Below, one piece after another: positions 6,804 to 33,600 of a stretch of DNA of 36,189 bases. A program made the translations under genes and the position numbers. The first letter of the stretch is position 1, and each line of letters begins with the position of its first letter. The stretch lies in contig JAGCUK010000029.1 of NCBI GenBank assembly GCA_017962925.1, forward strand, positions 1 through 36,189. Direction: 5' to 3'. The notes under the pieces were generated by a model. The model made no database searches, was not told where the DNA came from, and saw nothing but the letters and a program-made list of their open reading frames with translations. This DNA is from Bacteroidales bacterium (GTDB lineage: Bacteria > Bacteroidota > Bacteroidia > Bacteroidales > UBA932).

Positions 6804-6861
6804 CTTCCGGGCCGTGGCAGATTGTGGCGCTTCGCAGCTTTGCGCTGCGTGAGCTGCTGGC

Positions 6862-6971
6862 CATGGCGGCCAACCAACTGAATTTCAACCATTTAACCCA
6901 CAGCCTCCCCTCTTGTTTTCCGGGGGAGGTTTATAGCTAAGACATTGATGGCCAGGCCTTTAGCCGCCATC
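6862..6971 (+). repeat. 110-bp RAYT-linked palindromic element, copy A
   Basis: One of four colinear copies in this window. It starts CATGGCGG and ends CCGCCATC, imperfect inverted ends. Inside are GAAT (6880), ATTTAACC (6891), then the hairpin arms CTCCCC (6905-6910) and GGGGAG (6923-6928) around a 12-base loop, then a degenerate form of the CTGATnATCAG palindrome (6945-6955). All spacings equal those of copies B, C and D. It ends 10 bases before the transposase ATG, so it forms most of that gene's leader. This copy is the most diverged from B and C in its right half. Confidence 0.8.
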
Positions 6972-6981
6972 ACCATTTTCC

Positions 6982-7893: not shown

Positions 7894-7922
7894 AGCCGTG
7901 GCATTTCGTAGCACTTCTGGGC

Positions 7923-8032
7923 CGTGGCGGCCAACCAACTGAATTTCAACCATTTAACCACAAGCCTCCCCTCTTGTTTTCCAGAGGAGGCTTATATTTA
8001 ATATGCTGATTATCAGCGCTATATCTGCCATG
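7923..8032 (+). repeat. 110-bp RAYT-linked palindromic element, copy B
   Basis: Starts CGTGGCGG and ends CTGCCATG (8025-8032). GAAT is at 7941, ATTTAACCAC at 7952-7961, hairpin arms at 7966-7971 and 7984-7989, and the perfect palindrome CTGATTATCAG at 8006-8016. It lies 29 bases after the transposase stop and 2 bases beyond the stop codon of the convergent helix-hairpin-helix gene. It shares an ungapped 141-base block (7919-8059) with copy C, with 5 mismatches; that block includes the last 25 bases of the helix-hairpin-helix coding sequence. The hairpin may also serve as a transcription terminator for either gene. Confidence 0.85.
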
Positions 8033-8034
8033 CG

Positions 8035-8991
8035 CTATTTCAGCCGGCAACGGCGGAGACGTTCTGTTTGTTCCTCGGTGATTATTCCAGCCTGCCGTAA
8101 GCCATCGACAGTCAGTTTTTCCGGCGGATTGTGATCACGATAGAAAACGATGTCCCGGGCAGTCTGCCAATTACGGATGTGGGGGTGGTTGCGGATATCC
8201 TCCACGCTGCCGGACCAGAAGGGATAAGACTCTGAAGGTGAGCACGTTATAAGGTCCTTCAGCCCGTCATATTTCTCCTGGTCGAAATGCCAGATCTCCA
8301 TCAGTTGTTCCGGGCAACTGTAGCCCCGGAGCTGCTCCCGGTACTCTACCATCTTGTGCGCGAACCAGCCACCGATTCCAGGAAGGCTGTCGAAAGCCGC
8401 GGAATCTGCTTTATTGATATCGATCTTGGGGATGTCGATGAACGGCGCCAGACGCTTGAACACCGAATCCGCCACCACGAAACTCTTGGCAAAATCGCTC
8501 TTCCGCCGGAAGCGGCCGCCCTTCTCGCGATAGTTGATTATCGACTGCGCCTGCTTCTCGCTGAACCCCAGCCTCACCAACTCCTCCAGAGTGACGGTAT
8601 TCGGATTGAAGCGGAAACTCTCCACCCGCCTCTGCGGCGCCTTCTCATACATCGCCCTCGCCGCCGCCCCATGGCTGCCCTTCCTTCCGACGACTATCTG
8701 ATCTCCCTCCCCGGCCAAGTGCGACTGGCCGGATGACCCGCGCCACCCTCGGCTTAGAGGGGGGACCGCGTCAGCGGTGGGGTTGAGCGTGGGTGGGCTT
8801 GCGGGTGTGACAGGCGAGACGGTCGGTGAGGGTACATCCCCTCGCGCCGAAGAGTAAACAAACACCGTATCCGGCCGGTCGCGGTTGGCAACAATACGAT
8901 CGACAGCGGCGCGGTGCACGAACAACGCCAACTCGAAACCAAGGACGAGAAAAGCGAGGGCGATTGCCCCCGTTTTGAAAGAAGCCTTCAT
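8035..8991 (-). CDS. ComEA-like helix-hairpin-helix protein, membrane-anchored
   Basis: 318 residues. An N-terminal hydrophobic segment (about 8-25) anchors or exports the protein. A low-complexity, Pro/Ser/Gly-rich linker (about 50-115) follows, then repeated helix-hairpin-helix units: FNPNTVTLEELVRLGFSEKQAQSIINYREKGG (128-159), KIDINKADSAAFDSLPGIG (189-207) and a third degenerate unit near the C-terminus. Such units bind DNA non-specifically; ComEA-type proteins act in DNA uptake, but similar Bacteroidota proteins are uncharacterised. Linker residues 62-97 are encoded by palindrome-rich DNA that looks like repeat insertion. The final LRRCRLK and the stop lie in sequence duplicated downstream of tdk. 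Function is inferred. Confidence 0.8.
   Translation of the reverse strand: MKASFKTGAIALAFLVLGFELALFVHRAAVDRIVANRDRPDTVFVYSSARGDVPSPTVSPVTPASPPTLNPTADAVPPLSRGWRGSSGQSHLAGEGDQIVVGRKGSHGAAARAMYEKAPQRRVESFRFNPNTVTLEELVRLGFSEKQAQSIINYREKGGRFRRKSDFAKSFVVADSVFKRLAPFIDIPKIDINKADSAAFDSLPGIGGWFAHKMVEYREQLRGYSCPEQLMEIWHFDQEKYDGLKDLITCSPSESYPFWSGSVEDIRNHPHIRNWQTARDIVFYRDHNPPEKLTVDGLRQAGIITEEQTERLRRCRLK
8701..8808. repeat. Palindrome-rich segment inside helix-hairpin-helix gene
   Basis: The stretch contains CCGGCCA (8711-8717) inverted as TGGCCGG (8726-8732), CCCTC facing GAGGG, and ACCGC facing GCGGT. It encodes a Pro/Gly/Ser linker in frame. It does not match the 110-bp element; I read it as another repeat family inserted into the linker. 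Confidence 0.45.
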
Positions 8992-10342: not shown

Positions 10343-10383
10343 AGCAATAATGCGGCTCTCCGCCGTTGCCGGCTGAAATAGCG

Positions 10384-10493
10384 CATGGCAGATATAGCGC
10401 TGATAATCAGCATATTAAATATAAGCCTCCCCTGGAAAACAAGAGGGGAGGCTTGTGGTTAAATGGCTGAAATACAGTTAGTTGACCGCCACG
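10384..10493 (-). repeat. 110-bp RAYT-linked palindromic element, copy C
   Basis: Inverted relative to A and B. On the plus strand it runs from CATGGCAG (10384-10391) through CTGATAATCAG (10400-10410) and hairpin arms CTCCCC (10427-10432) and GGGGAG (10445-10450), to CCGCCACG (10486-10493). The stem extends to 11 perfect pairs (AAGCCTCCCCT with AGGGGAGGCTT), the best of the four copies. It sits between the convergent ends of tdk and xerD. The 141-base block 10357-10497 equals copy B plus flanks at 136 of 141 positions and includes the 3' end of the helix-hairpin-helix gene as a non-functional passenger. Confidence 0.88.
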
Positions 10494-10545
10494 GCCCTAC
10501 CTTTTTCATTCCCCCTCGCATCATCCGCGAAAACCGGGGTACATT

Positions 10546-27217: not shown

Positions 27218-27970
27218 TTAGGGAGTGCAAAGGTAGTTTTTTCCAATCTCAATTACAAATTTTTCTGCAAAATATTCGTCTTTTAGCCAGGAATCTATTC
27301 TCCAGGTGCGGATATTCTCGTTTGGAATGTGGAATTTCTTCTGCAGTGCGGCTATTTCGGTATTGATATCACCGCCTTTGAGGTAGAGGATGCTGTTGCG
27401 GAAGCGGCCTTTTACCCATGGGTAGAAGTTCTCCAGGCTGGTGACCGCACGGCTGACCACCCAGTCCCACTCCCCTTTCAAACTCTCCACTCTGGCATTC
27501 ACACACTCCACATTCTTCAGTCCCAGGCCATCTGCCACCGCCTGCGCTACTTTCACTTTTTTCCCTATCGAATCGCATAACGTAAACTTTGCCTCCGGCA
27601 TCACCATGGCCAGCGGAATTCCAGGAAATCCGCCGCCGCATCCGACATCTAAAAAAGTGTCATGGCAGCCAAATGCCTGATTATCAGACACTTCACCGCA
27701 TTCCTCCCCTCCGCTTTCTCGGGGGAGACAAGTGGTTAAATCACTGTCATTCAGCGCGTTACGTGCCATAGCGAGAGAGCTCGTAGAACGGACGGTGCCC
27801 GTTGCAGAGGGATAGTAAAGCTCCAGATACTCCGCAATAGCCAGAGAATGCAGGACATGGTGCGCGAAAATCGCATCCTCATCCTTGCGGGAGATAACAT
27901 TGATCTTCGCATTCCACTCCCGCCACAGCGCAACCGCCTGCGCGAAATCCTGTTCAGAAGGTATCAGCAT
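27218..27970 (-). CDS. rsmG: 16S rRNA (guanine527-N7)-methyltransferase RsmG with in-frame element insertion
   Basis: 250 residues; RsmG is usually about 205-215. It methylates G527 in the 16S rRNA 530 loop. The N-terminal helical region (HHVLHSLAIAEYLELYYP, to about 54) and the SAM site FLDVGCGGGFPGIPLAM (106-122) are typical. Between them, residues about 67-104 are encoded by the 110-bp element copy D, and this stretch has no counterpart in the family as I know it. The frame stays open and the rest is normal, so the protein is probably functional, with a surface loop before the first beta strand. The start ATG at 27970 overlaps the HAD gene by 7 bases; an earlier frame to 28045 is not needed. 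Confidence 0.92.
   Translation of the reverse strand: MLIPSEQDFAQAVALWREWNAKINVISRKDEDAIFAHHVLHSLAIAEYLELYYPSATGTVRSTSSLAMARNALNDSDLTTCLPRESGGEECGEVSDNQAFGCHDTFLDVGCGGGFPGIPLAMVMPEAKFTLCDSIGKKVKVAQAVADGLGLKNVECVNARVESLKGEWDWVVSRAVTSLENFYPWVKGRFRNSILYLKGGDINTEIAALQKKFHIPNENIRTWRIDSWLKDEYFAEKFVIEIGKNYLCTP
27228..27259 (-). promoter_or_regulatory. Promoter of rpmH, inside rsmG
   Basis: Minus strand: TTTG (27259-27256), 20 bases, then TACCTTTG (27235-27228), a full consensus match. It lies in the last codons of rsmG and gives rpmH a leader of about 30 bases. Confidence 0.75.
27661..27770 (-). repeat. 110-bp RAYT-linked palindromic element, copy D (inside rsmG)
   Basis: On the sense strand it starts TATGGCAC and ends CTGCCATG. 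GAAT, ATTTAACCAC, CTCCCC, GGGGAG and CTGATAATCAG all occur at the same spacings as in copies B and C: 10, 7, 4, 12, 16 and 8 bases between successive blocks. The loop and spacer sequences have diverged, while the hairpin arms and palindrome are kept. It encodes about residues 67-104 of RsmG. Confidence 0.82.
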
Positions 27971-28800
27971 AACCCGTGAGCTTCCTCCAAAAGACAACCC
28001 AGCTCCTCGATATCCCGGCAGATCAACGAAGGGGCGTGAGGCCAAGCCTTGGCCACCTCGAGAGTGGTCTCGCCGCTGAGCACCAGCACGCCGAAAGTGC
28101 CGGCATTGTATGCCATCTCCACATCAGTATAGATGCGGTCCCCCACCATCGCAATCTGCGAAGGCTTCAGGCCGTAACGTCCTTCAATTCCCGCCAGCAT
28201 GGCTGGATCGGGCTTGCCTATGGTCACATCAGGCTTACGCCCGGTAGCATATTCTATGCACTTGCACAGCGATCCGCAGTCCACCAGGATAGTGGGCTGG
28301 TCGGTCGGGCAGACCTTGTCGGGATTTGTGGCAAGATAAGGCAGCCCCTGCGACACCCACCATGCGGCACGGCACAGGCGCGGATAGACCAGGGTGGTGT
28401 CGAATGCCACCACAACCGCATCCGGCACATCCGCCGCCGAATCCGAAGTGCTCTCGAAACCGGCCTCTTCGAACTGGCTAATCATAGAAGGAGTGCCCAG
28501 CAGGAACAGCCTCTTCACATCCGGCAAGTGAGTCTTGATATAGTCTATCGTTGCAGGCACAGTGCTGTACATCTGCTCCCTCTCGGCCTTGATCCCCATC
28601 CGCGCCAGCTTGGCAAGATAGTCGTCCAGCGACTTGGTGGGGTTATTGGTCAGGAAAGAATATGTTATCCCCATCCGCGTCAACTTCGCCAGAAAGTCCA
28701 GTGTGAAGGGGAAGATGTTGTTCTCCATATAGATGGTTCCATCCATATCGAGGGCTATATGGCGCAGGGCCAGCAATTTGTCGCGAAGGTCCTTATTCAT
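27964..28800 (-). CDS. HAD-IIA phosphatase (NagD-like)
   Basis: 278 residues. The nucleophile motif is DMDGTIY, with TNNPTKS as motif II, GKPDP as the motif III region and GDRIYTDVEMA as motif IV, the usual NagD/4-nitrophenylphosphatase order. Members dephosphorylate small phosphorylated metabolites (UMP, sugar phosphates, phosphoglycolate). The ATG at 28800 overlaps the transporter gene end by 8 bases; a TTG at 28806 is the only upstream alternative. The neighbouring glycerol phosphate-type transporter suggests a phosphorylated C3 substrate, but this is only context. Confidence 0.88.
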   Translation of the reverse strand: MNKDLRDKLLALRHIALDMDGTIYMENNIFPFTLDFLAKLTRMGITYSFLTNNPTKSLDDYLAKLARMGIKAEREQMYSTVPATIDYIKTHLPDVKRLFLLGTPSMISQFEEAGFESTSDSAADVPDAVVVAFDTTLVYPRLCRAAWWVSQGLPYLATNPDKVCPTDQPTILVDCGSLCKCIEYATGRKPDVTIGKPDPAMLAGIEGRYGLKPSQIAMVGDRIYTDVEMAYNAGTFGVLVLSGETTLEVAKAWPHAPSLICRDIEELGCLLEEAHGLC

Positions 28801-30271: not shown

Positions 30272-30861
30272 ATACTTTCTTCGGTTTTAATCTTGTCTAT
30301 CTGCGCTTTCGCGCGGCGGATACGGGTGCGGACGGTGTTGAGCGGCAGGCCGGTCTCCTCCGCAATCTCCCCATACTGCAGGCCATCCACCAGCCGCATC
30401 TTCGCTATCCTCCGGTAGAGTTCGGGCAGGCCCTCGATATACTTCTCCGTCTGGATCTGATCCTCGTCCCGGATGATGGATTCGAGCGGAGTATCATCCC
30501 CACTGCCTATACTGCTCACGGCAGTAACGGCGGAATGGTCCTGATCGATGGACACATAGCGCTTGTGCGAGCGGTTCTCCTGCTCCACTATATCCAGGGC
30601 CGTGTTATGGGCGATGTTGGTGAGCCAGGTAGAAAACTGGCTCTTGGTAGGGTCGTAGCTGCGAATCTGGCGGAAAGCCTTCTCAAAGCTCCGCGAGCAG
30701 ATGTCATCCACGTAGAAGTCATCCAGATTCTTCATCCGGCTCTTGATGTAGGACCGGAGGGAATCTATGTGCGTATCCCAGAGTTCGGTGAACGCGGCCC
30801 CGTCGCCTATGATGGCCAGGCGGAGCAGTTCGTCAATGGGCCTCGAGCCAGGTCTTGCCAT
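30268..30861 (-). CDS. RNA polymerase sigma factor, ECF type
   Basis: 197 residues with sigma-70 region 2 (DDICSRSFEKAFRQIRSYDPTKSQFSTWLTNIAHNTALDIV, about 50-92) and region 4 (YRRIAKMRLVDGLQYGEIAEETGLPLNTVRTRIRRAKAQI, about 149-188). It lacks region 3, as in the ECF group. No anti-sigma gene adjoins it, unlike SusCD-type ECF units. Its ATG lies 29 bases inside the polA end, and its stop overlaps the transporter start, so it sits in one transcript with polA. Target promoters are unknown. Confidence 0.88.
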   Translation of the reverse strand: MARPGSRPIDELLRLAIIGDGAAFTELWDTHIDSLRSYIKSRMKNLDDFYVDDICSRSFEKAFRQIRSYDPTKSQFSTWLTNIAHNTALDIVEQENRSHKRYVSIDQDHSAVTAVSSIGSGDDTPLESIIRDEDQIQTEKYIEGLPELYRRIAKMRLVDGLQYGEIAEETGLPLNTVRTRIRRAKAQIDKIKTEESI

Positions 30862-33547
30862 AATTGCATTCTACTGTCAGCGGAACCGAAAGTTCCATTA
30901 CACCTTGCATCTCCTCTACCAGCAGTGCCTTCACCGCATCTATCTCATTCTCAGGCACTTCCAGCAGGAGTTCGTCGTGAATCTGCAACACCATCACGGC
31001 CTTCAGGCCCTCCTTGCGCAGGCGGGCGGCCACGCGTATCATCGCCAGTTTGATGATATCCGCCGCCGTGCCCTGGATGGGGGCGTTGACGGCGTTGCGC
31101 TCGGCGATGGCGCGGATGTTTGCATTGTGCGAGTTGATGTCGGATATGTAGCGTCTGCGCCCGAACATCGTCTCGGTATAGAGGGTTTCGCGGGCCTTCG
31201 CCAGGGTGCCGTCGATGAATGAACGGATGCTAGGGAAGGATTCGAAGTAGTCGTCTATCAGCTTCTTGGCCACCGTACGGGGGCATTTCAGGCGCTGTGC
31301 CAGCCCGAAAGAGGAGATGCCGTACATAATGCCGAAGTTGGCGGTCTTGGCCATACGGCGGTCATCCGCGGTCACGTCCGCGACCGGCTTGCGGAAGATC
31401 TTGGCGGCCGTGGCGGCATGCACGTCCTGCCCTTCGCGGAAGGCCTGGCGCATGTGTTCATCGCCACAGAGATGTGCCATCACACGCAGCTCTATCTGGG
31501 AGTAGTCCGCCGACATCATCACCTTTCCGGGTTCTCCCGGCACGAAGGCCTTGCGGATTTCGCGGCCCTGTTCGGTGCGGATGGGGATGTTCTGCAGGTT
31601 AGGGTTGCTGCTGGAGAGCCGCCCCGTGGCTGTAAGTGCCTGATTGAAAGTGGTATGCACGCGCCCGTCCACCGGTGAGATGTACTGCGCGAAGGGTTCT
31701 ATGTAGGTGGATAGCAGCTTGCGCAGGCCGCGGTAATCCAGCAATGCGTCTATGATAGGGTGCCTGTCTGCCAGTGCGGAGAGCGTCTCTTCATCCGTAG
31801 GCCAGGTGCCCTTGGAGGGCTTTTTGGCCTTGGGATCTAGATTCAGCTTTTCGAAGATGACTTCTCCCATCTGCTTGGGGGAACTGACGTTCAGGGCAGG
31901 ATTCTCCGCATAGCCGCGGATTTCCTCTTCCCGGGCCAGCATCTGCTTGCGCAGAGATTCTGCAAAGTCTTTGAGGGATGAGAGATCTACCTTTACGCCA
32001 ACGAGCTCCATTTGGGAGAGGACGCTGATGAGGGGCTCTTCGATTTCGTCGTAGAGTTTCTGCATGCCGGAGGCGGCCAGTTCGCCGTAGAGCGTGCCGG
32101 ACAGGCTGCGTATGGCTTCCGCTTCTTTCGTATGGTCGGCTTCGCCCGGGGCGCCGCCGTCGTCGCCGAAAAGAGAACCGAGGTCGGCTGCAGGGGCTTC
32201 GTCGAGGCTGATGCCGAGGTAGGTTTGGGCGAGGGATGTGAGGCGGTGGTCGCTTTCGGGGTTCAGCAGATAGTGCATGAGCTCGATGTCCAACAGCTTG
32301 CCTTTCAGCGAGATGCCGCGTTTTGCCAATTCATTCATCTGAGCCTTGATGCCATATCCTGCCTTGCTCTTGCCGGCATCTTCCAGGTCCTTTTTGAACT
32401 CCTCCAGCCTCCCGCTCCTGGTCCCGTCCTCATCCGCCAGCCATAGGGTTTCACCGTCAAGGTATATAGCTATATCAGAGGGCTTTGTATCTGTAGGTTG
32501 CGGAAGGTCTTCCCCCTGAGGGAGTTCGTCCTGCGGACTCCCTATCTGTGGGGGCGCTGCCCCCAAATCCCCCGCGGCTCCCGGGCTACCGACATCGCTG
32601 CTTCGCAGCTCCGTCCCGCCCTCCGCCGTGCGCTCTGAGGAGCGCAGAGAGCCCGCCCCTGTCATTCCGAGCGAATCGAAGGAATCTGGAATATTCAAAT
32701 ATTTCTTCAGGGAGTTAAAGCCATAGAGATTGAACAACTCCATGGCTTCCGGGCGGGCAGCCTCGAGAAGCATATCATCCGCCGAAACGGGAATGTCGAT
32801 ATCCGTCTTGATGGTCACCAGCACCTTGCTGAGGGCGATGTGATCCTCCGCAGCGCGGAAAAGCTCCTGCTGGCGCGGAGTCAGCTCGTCGAGGTGAGAA
32901 TAGATCTTCTCGAGGGTATCGTATTTCTGCAAAAGCTTGCTGGCACCGACTTCGCCCACGCCCTTCACACCGGGCACATTGTCGGAAGCATCGCCGCAGA
33001 TGGCGAGCATGTCGATTATCTGATCCGGACGCTCGATACCATACTTCTCCTGAAGACGCGGGATGTCGTAAAGTTCATCATCTCCTCCCTTCTTGCCGGG
33101 CTTGACCTGGAAGATATGGGGTTCCAGCAGTTGGCCGTAATCCTTGTCGGGGGTGACCATGTAGACGTCGAAACCCTCTCGGGCACTGCGCTTAGCCATC
33201 GATCCCAGCACATCATCCGCCTCAAAACCGGGAATCATCAGCACCGGAATATTCAGGGCCTTGACTATCTGGGTGAGCGGCTCGAGGGCATCGATCACCA
33301 GCTGGGGAGTCTCCCCACGGTTGGCCTTGTATTCGGGATAGAGCTGGTTGCGGAAGGTGCCTCCGGGCGGATCGAACCCCACTGCAATAGGCGTGGGCTG
33401 CTCGCGCCGTATCAGCTCCAGCAGATACTTCGTGAAGCCGAAAAGGATGGACGTATCCACCCCCTTGGCATTTATCATCGGCCTGCCCAGGAAGGCATAG
33501 TACATCTTGAAGATGAGGGCATGGCCGTCAATCAGAAAAAGTTTCAT
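30833..33547 (-). CDS. polA: DNA polymerase I with degenerate 3'-5' exonuclease domain
   Basis: 904 residues. The N-terminal 5' nuclease domain (about 1-287; FEADDVLGSMA, CGDASDNVPGVKGVG) is intact. A repeat-rich linker (about 288-353) follows. The exonuclease domain (about 358-500) lacks the DxE motif (IAIYLDGETLW in its place) and the following NxxxD motif is YGIKAQMN, so proofreading is probably lost, as in Taq Pol I. The polymerase domain has motif A (SADYSQIELR), motif B (AKTANFGIMYG) and motif C (QIHDELLLEV). It fills gaps and removes RNA primers. The ATG at 33547 is preferred to the TTG at 33553. Confidence 0.95.
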   Translation of the reverse strand: MKLFLIDGHALIFKMYYAFLGRPMINAKGVDTSILFGFTKYLLELIRREQPTPIAVGFDPPGGTFRNQLYPEYKANRGETPQLVIDALEPLTQIVKALNIPVLMIPGFEADDVLGSMAKRSAREGFDVYMVTPDKDYGQLLEPHIFQVKPGKKGGDDELYDIPRLQEKYGIERPDQIIDMLAICGDASDNVPGVKGVGEVGASKLLQKYDTLEKIYSHLDELTPRQQELFRAAEDHIALSKVLVTIKTDIDIPVSADDMLLEAARPEAMELFNLYGFNSLKKYLNIPDSFDSLGMTGAGSLRSSERTAEGGTELRSSDVGSPGAAGDLGAAPPQIGSPQDELPQGEDLPQPTDTKPSDIAIYLDGETLWLADEDGTRSGRLEEFKKDLEDAGKSKAGYGIKAQMNELAKRGISLKGKLLDIELMHYLLNPESDHRLTSLAQTYLGISLDEAPAADLGSLFGDDGGAPGEADHTKEAEAIRSLSGTLYGELAASGMQKLYDEIEEPLISVLSQMELVGVKVDLSSLKDFAESLRKQMLAREEEIRGYAENPALNVSSPKQMGEVIFEKLNLDPKAKKPSKGTWPTDEETLSALADRHPIIDALLDYRGLRKLLSTYIEPFAQYISPVDGRVHTTFNQALTATGRLSSSNPNLQNIPIRTEQGREIRKAFVPGEPGKVMMSADYSQIELRVMAHLCGDEHMRQAFREGQDVHAATAAKIFRKPVADVTADDRRMAKTANFGIMYGISSFGLAQRLKCPRTVAKKLIDDYFESFPSIRSFIDGTLAKARETLYTETMFGRRRYISDINSHNANIRAIAERNAVNAPIQGTAADIIKLAMIRVAARLRKEGLKAVMVLQIHDELLLEVPENEIDAVKALLVEEMQGVMELSVPLTVECNYGKTWLEAH
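32490..32690. repeat. In-frame palindromic repeats in the polA linker
   Basis: Several inverted repeats occur in about 200 bases: GGGGGC/GCCCCC (32550-32564), GGGAGT/ACTCCC, TGCGCTC/GAGCGCA, GCTGC/GCAGC, and near the right edge TGTCATTCCGAGCGAATCGA, similar to a widespread bacterial intergenic repeat. They encode a Gly/Ser/Ala/Pro-rich linker. Confidence 0.6.
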
Positions 33548-33600
33548 AAGCAACTACAAATTTGAAACTTTTTTCGGAAGTTTCAAAGAGTAGATTGCAC

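Follow-up and report, generated by a model that had tools for sequence, protein, structure and literature searches.

How does a palindromic repeat come to lie within the reading frame of an rRNA methyltransferase gene, and how does the frame stay open across it? The question is posed by a 36,189-nt stretch of DNA (hereafter the window), contig C78 in the genome of an uncultured gut bacterium of the Bacteroidales (G000; 2.03 Mb in 96 contigs, 84% complete). The gene concerned lies in an ORF of 275 codons at 27218-28045 on the minus strand, open back to a TTG at 28045, and was identified as rsmG by a match to the equivalog model TIGR00138 rsmG_gidB (104.4 bits, above the cut-off of 99.5) and to Pfam GidB (6e-32). 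A search of 400 genomes of the genus found an rsmG match in 372. Relatives of the protein (80 records) came from Bacteroidales metagenome-assembled genomes (MAGs), many of them from the ruminant gut, and five of the 80 were named Candidatus Cryptobacteroides species. The initial annotation had placed a repeat copy, copy D, in frame within this gene; with the ATG at 27970, the 38 codons of the element are residues 67-104, in agreement with that placement (Table 1).

Table 1 Positions of the repeat copies, the transposase gene and rsmG in the window
Feature	Position	Strand	Basis or remark
Copy A, upstream of transposase gene	6858..6974	+	119.8 bits, covariance model
Y1 (HUH) transposase, RAYT type, 303 aa	6982..7893	+	Pfam Y1_Tnp; motifs FDHLH and YLYNNP by eye
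Copy B, downstream of transposase gene	7919..8035	+	138.0 bits, covariance model
Copy C, intergenic	10381..10497	-	139.7 bits, covariance model
rsmG CDS (16S rRNA methyltransferase G), 250 aa	27218..27970	-	ATG at 27970 chosen via alignment with relatives
Copy D, 117-nt palindromic element	27657..27774	+ register 27657-27773; - register 27658-27774	cmsearch with covariance model
38 element-encoded codons AMARNALNDSDLTTCLPRESGGEECGEVSDNQAFGCHD, RsmG residues 67-104	27659..27772	-	Peptide reading
46 codons (138 nt) missing from the closest empty allele (G195, L104)	27659..27796	-	Codon alignment; ends uncertain by a few bases

A repeat search grouped positions 27658-27769 with copies A and B, with 61% identity to copy A over 112 nt without gaps. 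Because circularity was to be avoided, a covariance model (117 positions, 29 pairs) was built from seven copies, none of them in rsmG: three from the window, three from G109 and one from G069. This model recognised copy D with 40.2 bits on the plus strand and 35.6 bits on the minus strand, corresponding to E-values of 4e-8 and 6e-7 in the window and, for the plus strand, 2.2e-6 across the whole 2.03 Mb genome. Copy D was aligned over all 117 positions without indels, confirming the exact block spacing first noticed by inspection. Scanning the window up to an E-value of 10 returned copies A, B, C and D only; being quasi-palindromic, each was matched on both strands. Copy D therefore belongs to the palindromic element family. 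The unit had been given as 110 bases, not a multiple of three, and bases were thought to have been gained, lost or repaired at its edges. The 110 nt were the core only; the full unit of 117 nt is divisible by three, so this puzzle disappears and 117-nt coding copies keep the frame without edge repair. The statement that arms and palindrome had been kept was too strong: copy D retains 23 of the 29 pairs overall and 8 of the 11 pairs in the central stem, where 43 non-coding 117-nt copies have a mean of 10.4 (total pairs ranging from 22 to 29).

DNA alignment identified five genomes of one Bacteroidales clade with the element in rsmG (G000, G194, G109, G069 and G398), and a frame-specific search of 400 genomes of the genus found rsmG copies in those same five only. 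Genomes G195, G353, G197 and G351 have a short linker at this point (PSATG followed directly by SFLDVG in G195), and their RsmG proteins are 84-90% identical to that of the window. Between the HH.LHS and GGGFPG motifs, the window protein has 75 residues and that of G195 has 29; the gain is therefore 46 codons (44 against G197) and not about 37 as originally estimated. The 138 nt gained relative to G195 comprise the element and 22 nt outside it (27775-27796). No target-site duplication was evident by eye between filled and empty alleles, the flanks of which have diverged. The alignment of relatives with and without the segment, which had been set as a test, thus shows rsmG alleles of both kinds, filled and empty, in close relatives, down to a 90% identical RsmG without the element, and the frame is open in all five carriers.

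Among the matches listed, many relatives align to the 275-codon ORF in two blocks, approximately 27-81 and 130-275, with the middle missing, and G194, G109 and G069 match through the linker and G398 from residue 86 on. We surveyed 80 rsmG loci, of which L313, L320, L321, L323, L318 and L328 gave no length and L284 and L285 represent one genome. In the 74 measurable loci, the linker had 26-38 residues in 60 and 52-137 in 14. The element peptide was present in four of the 74 (L273, L274, L275 and L277, corresponding to G194, G109, G069 and G398), and homologues carrying the same residues independently of the element were looked for among these loci and not found. Comparison with the PDB sequence of E. 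coli RsmG (1jsx) matched query residues 12-49 to chain residues 28-65 (weakly, i-Evalue 1) and 103-215 to 67-183, so that the insert falls where the E. coli protein has about one residue.

The element was not confined to rsmG. In a first batch of 58 copies found with the covariance model, three recognisable genes held it: rsmG (in the five genomes), a RhaD-type aldolase/dehydrogenase gene (TIGR02632, 248 bits, below the cut-off of 568) and dnaX (TIGR02397, 423 bits, cut-off 250). In all three, the coding frame starts at the third position of the element, counted on the coding strand. A second batch added a DUF3575 gene, also among the covariance-model matches and in the same frame. Among recognisable genes found with the nucleotide model alone, which is blind to frame, a single frame was used in three of three and then four of four. 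Nine peptides from the first three genes share nine invariant positions, including LN, LP, GE, Q and H. A profile made from the peptide matched 15 of the 400 genus genomes at E<=0.01, some of the matches containing stops or lying in short frames, and its hits in long open frames added a gene for an outer-membrane beta-barrel (G191), a gene of Mur-ligase type (G268) and a 236-codon ORF (G000:C63). These further genes were found with a frame-specific profile and therefore cannot count toward the frame claim. The G268 gene has Pfam Mur_ligase domains and was named folC by eye; its element copy misses by 2 nt the rule that the frame be open for at least 60 nt past both element ends. The 236-codon ORF (L228), counted as coding, had no Pfam match and its status as a gene is putative. 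By this 60-nt rule, eleven further copies lie in open frames of 90-346 codons; they gave no Pfam match (0/11) and were excluded from the coding count.

All 19 full-length coding copies measure 117 nt. The dnaX peptide of G069 is partial, matching 25 of 38 profile positions, and the dnaX copy of G250 has kept its length and ends with a different middle. Element-free orthologues were found for dnaX (G351, G197, G145 and G268) and for the RhaD-type gene (G351, G117, G069 and G145), in a comparison that leaves out the RhaD-type genes of G195 and G250 and dnaX of G117 and G123. Collectively, these data indicated that the element is read in one frame in dnaX, RhaD-type, DUF3575, outer-membrane barrel and Mur-ligase (folC-like) genes and in one unidentified ORF. 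The likeness to Rickettsia palindromic elements suggested at the outset therefore goes further than was claimed, since the element occupies the same frame in other, unrelated genes. As for the essential genes of that comparison, dnaX is the better example, rsmG being dispensable in E. coli.

Members of the family also lie beside transposase genes. The window transposase matched Pfam Y1_Tnp just above the cut-off (3.1e-5, 24.5 bits against 23) and the NCBIfam model REP_Tyr_transpos (NF047646) below it (30.1 bits against 80), and no PDB sequence matched it at E<=1. Both flanks were examined for 11 RAYT-like genes, and nine had an element close by on both sides (the window gene, G109:C19, G194, G398, G353, G000:C86, G109:C16, G123 and G069:C33). 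The gene of G000:C52 has a close copy on one side only, with a second, weak match (23.7 bits) about 1.2 kb away; no element was found by the covariance model at G071:C3; and G085:C8, for which the sequence starts inside the gene, has one copy downstream. Two of these loci, L121 (G000:C86) and L123 (G000:C52), are further RAYT-like genes of G000, 57% and 32% identical to that of the window, and their element copies have other central stems.

The covariance model matched all 14 chosen close relatives at E<=1. Across the order, with stricter filters, it matched 2 of 149 genomes at E<=1e-4 (the own genome and G535), and one further genus genome in this draw gave no match at that threshold. DNA similarity to copy B was detected in 3 of 121 genus genomes (E<=0.001), and a RAYT relative in 67 of the 121 (E<=1e-10). 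Taking the model matches listed and the peptide hits together, there are at least 122 distinct copies; 63 of the 122 measure 117 nt and 119 measure 114-118 nt, within a range of 90-118 nt. By eye, the central hairpin differs between subfamilies, and the ends (GTGGCGGcTAA..TTAGCCGCCAC-like) and inner CTGATnATCAG-like motifs recur. The outer stem consists of 8 pairs and its ends, TGGC..GCCA, form terminal inverted repeats as in MITEs.

We therefore propose, with a probability of roughly 0.8, that copy D stems from the long-past insertion of a non-autonomous, quasi-palindromic element of 117 nt, siblings of which flank RAYT-like Y1 transposase genes, and that it was moved in trans, tolerated as a loop and later exchanged. 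A RAYT protein would move the element in trans as single-stranded DNA, and the element would have landed in the RsmG loop that connects the N-terminal helices to the first strand of the SAM domain. Its skeleton, TGGCGGCTAA..CTGATnATCAG..CTGATnATCAG..TTAGCCGCCA, is expected to put stops in two of the three frames on either strand; only inserts in the third frame would therefore survive, all yielding a related hydrophilic peptide. Tolerated copies would also have lost the remaining in-frame stop and part of the stem. By eye, copy D has GGTGAA in place of the GGTTAA-like arms of other copies. The RsmG insert peptide would be a tolerated surface loop and not a new activity, and the insert-bearing segment of rsmG would afterwards have passed between species by homologous recombination. 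The element peptides are hydrophilic, with a negative GRAVY score in 15 of 15 (-0.05 to -1.39), which suits a loop and proves nothing.

The exchange step is suggested by the distribution of substitutions. Over the 212 nt around the insert (27633-27844), G000 and G194 differ at 4 sites; in the flanks, they differ at 39 in the 200 nt of 27846-28045 and at 29 in the 200 nt of 27433-27632. Synonymous change between the two genomes was 0.04 in the insert against 0.74 and 0.81 in the flanks, and G109 matches the left part of the tract at 93-97%. From these sequence comparisons, the insert-bearing segment of rsmG was probably exchanged between species by homologous recombination. Judging by this near-identical tract, recombination seems to move the allele. 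The element might have entered genes without a RAYT, either by homologous recombination or gene conversion from one copy to another, or through a different enzyme; the dnaX and outer-membrane coding copies of G191, each other's nearest relatives in the tree (support 0.96), also speak for such a route. First entry at a non-homologous site in a gene nevertheless requires insertion, and nine of the 11 RAYT-like genes have family members on both flanks. We regard spread without a RAYT as unlikely, yet as the strongest competitor to transposase-driven insertion.

How the frame stays open was addressed by comparing coding and non-coding copies. For 36 non-coding copies, read on both strands, none of the 72 readings was open in frame 0 or frame 1, and 3 were open in frame 2; among 15 coding copies, frames 0 and 1 were open in none and frame 2 in all 15. 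For 43 non-coding copies, a larger set, frame 2, which is the coding one, was open in 6 of 86 readings. Two frames thus seem to be closed by the skeleton of the element itself, and the third seems to need only a few changes. Coding copies keep 18-24 of the 29 pairs (n = 19) against 22-29 in non-coding copies (n = 43; Mann-Whitney p 5e-9, for rows that are not independent), the loss falling chiefly on the central stem and the neighbouring arm. The mean predicted RNA fold was -39.6 for coding copies (n = 15) against -47.3 for non-coding ones (n = 36), the rsmG copies (-41 to -56) being among the stronger. A tree was built from 15 of the 19 coding copies together with 36 non-coding copies, each of these entered in both orientations. 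In it, the coding copies mostly clustered, with weak support for the whole cluster (0.35-0.80) and 0.90 for dnaX with the RhaD-type gene; the G000:C63 copy fell outside the cluster and two copies of other loci inside. The tree fits a coding lineage, and shared codon constraint may yield the same picture.

The strong mRNA hairpin predicted for copy D (-41.0 kcal/mol) raises the question of whether the insert reaches the mature protein, as it might be removed by ribosome skipping or RNA cutting, or rsmG might be broken. This is improbable, as the frame is open in five genomes, the length is a multiple of three and the same frame is used in other genes. Pairwise dN/dS was 0.03-0.09 in rsmG downstream of the insert, so the stretch that follows the insert is under selection at the protein level; the values in the insert itself were relaxed, ranging from 0.15 to 1.0, and dN/dS in this gene is unsafe because the recombination tract spans the insert.

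The linker of RsmG also holds other sequences in other relatives, and three of these are dispersed repeat families. An 88-nt unit in the linkers of G398 and G009 was matched in every one of the 17 genomes searched, as many as 14 times in a single genome; the folC-like gene of G268 contains one of these matches. With at most 2 mismatches, 13 of 14 genomes contained the sequence GTCATCCYGAGCGAAGCGAAGGA, which is part of the G250 linker; G195 alone had 39 occurrences, and the reversed control occurred in none of the genomes. A unit containing GGGGCGGAGCCCC, in the linkers of G145 and G402, occurred at four other places among the loci examined (L119, L159, L168 and L180). Two more families are likely, less certain than these three: VSQKSGHLAQ is repeated inside the G292 linker and present in that of G268, and the unit DYPAIPLEGVQG (L101, L103, L109 and L112) had one short match elsewhere (L254). 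The G298 linker had no match elsewhere among the loci examined. In G398, the linker contains in a row the 88-nt unit, a stretch common to G402, and the element. The rsmG linker is therefore a hot spot that holds, in relatives, three other dispersed repeat families and perhaps five. At this one position, several independent repeat families thus seem to supply protein linkers.

With a length of 26 to 137 residues across the 74 loci and other sequences in the same place, the linker could be merely hypervariable and its likeness to the element due to chance or convergence; this is very improbable given the ungapped match at E 4e-8 to a model that never saw copy D, and several of the other long linkers are dispersed repeats themselves. 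An assembly or binning artefact is the least probable explanation of all: the carrier relatives are MAGs, and the genome of the window is in 96 contigs at 84% completeness, but the insert occurs in five genomes with diverged sequence, and the four carriers with named records come from different assemblies (SRR12081293; RGIG6641 from sheep rumen, L274; RUG10780, L275; and Tb.RUG.525, L277).

Beyond the insertion of copy D itself, the data admit a more tentative reading, which we consider possible though doubtful. A coding-competent lineage may have split from the transposase-linked element after losing the final in-frame stops and a large part of the stem, and may spread from gene to gene as protein sequence. 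A family peptide, about AANxLNxSxxxTSLPxENxGExxxQxxDNQxxxRHA, would thereby enter proteins, among them a subunit of the clamp loader and an rRNA methyltransferase. The loop before the SAM domain of RsmG would have accepted at least four repeat families, that of copy D included, and the genus would build linkers from mobile repeats.

Palindromes within genes are already known. Rickettsia is the best-known case of palindromes in protein genes, and to our knowledge no enzyme has been tied to the Rickettsia palindromic elements (RPE). The element described here resembles them, by description, as a palindromic repeat in frame in unrelated protein genes with a conserved peptide; it differs in its host, a Bacteroidales clade, in its 117-nt unit and in having copies that flank Y1 transposase genes. 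As excerpted, the account of RPE gives a length of about 150 bp, an ORF for a conserved peptide in each, and nearly half of them in frame in unrelated genes (PMC10969869).

REP sequences offer a second comparison. According to parts of one source, several species have them within genes, many of which serve DNA synthesis or repair; two Xanthomonas recB genes carry REPs at about the same site; and REPtrons and TIRtrons consist of transposases with REPs or longer inverted repeats on either side, a GGGGWSAS motif being present in some (PMC3733652). Nine of the 11 RAYT-like genes, that of the window among them, have the arrangement of a REPtron, a Y1 transposase gene flanked by repeat copies, and by eye GGGGAGAC, in the central stem of copy D and of many copies, fits GGGGWSAS as in TIRtron and REP repeats. 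Unlike REPs (20-40 bp), the unit measures 117 nt and has no conserved GTAG foot: no GTAG is found among the invariant columns of the seven model copies, and it directly precedes the unit in one of them (copy C). Unlike intragenic REPs, the element is read in a single fixed frame and encodes a family peptide in different genes.

Bacteroidetes transposases of TnpA-REP subclass 2.6 (RAYT group 5) are described, in the excerpted text, as having 'atypical secondary structures' on their flanks, further copies of which occur in other parts of the genome (PMC6006769). The window transposase is likewise from the Bacteroidetes, with flanking structures and copies elsewhere in the genome; its motifs, DHLH and YLYNNP, do not exactly match the NH[LIV]H and YIH[QN]NP given for the subclass in that excerpt, which does not mention coding copies such as those found here. 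Enterobacterial RU sequences, compared by partial descriptions, are also small, MITE-like elements with open frames and intragenic copies, in other hosts (PMC2759123, PMC2229807). In the open-licence literature (titles and abstract starts), none of the matches listed was recognisable as dealing with coding palindromes in Cryptobacteroides or with RAYT-linked coding elements in Bacteroidetes; within that scope, no Bacteroidales element was found that is linked to a RAYT and has a fixed coding frame. The outcome known from Rickettsia is here accompanied by Y1 transposase genes flanked on both sides. These flanking copies, together with filled and empty alleles in close relatives, make the entry and survival of palindromes in genes directly testable.

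Some minor observations were made alongside. A polA-like ORF (30833-33553, minus strand, by eye) has a two-mismatch copy of GTCATCCYGAGCGAAGCGAAGGA at 32661-32683 on the plus strand, read as SFDSLGMT at the start of a long low-complexity linker. PTADAVPPLS, present in the window ORF 8035-8991 (minus strand) and in the RhaD-type linker of G398, is perhaps another coding repeat, and TLGTLRGRGPAPLGGVERSE, in the linkers of dnaX (L242 in G398, L243 in G353) and of the RhaD-type gene (L266 in G191), perhaps a further coding repeat family. Over 141 nt (7919-8059 and 10357-10497), copies B and C show 96% complementarity, which continues for 24 nt past the unit on one side; the flank they have in common suggests that a segment longer than the 117-nt unit was duplicated or converted.
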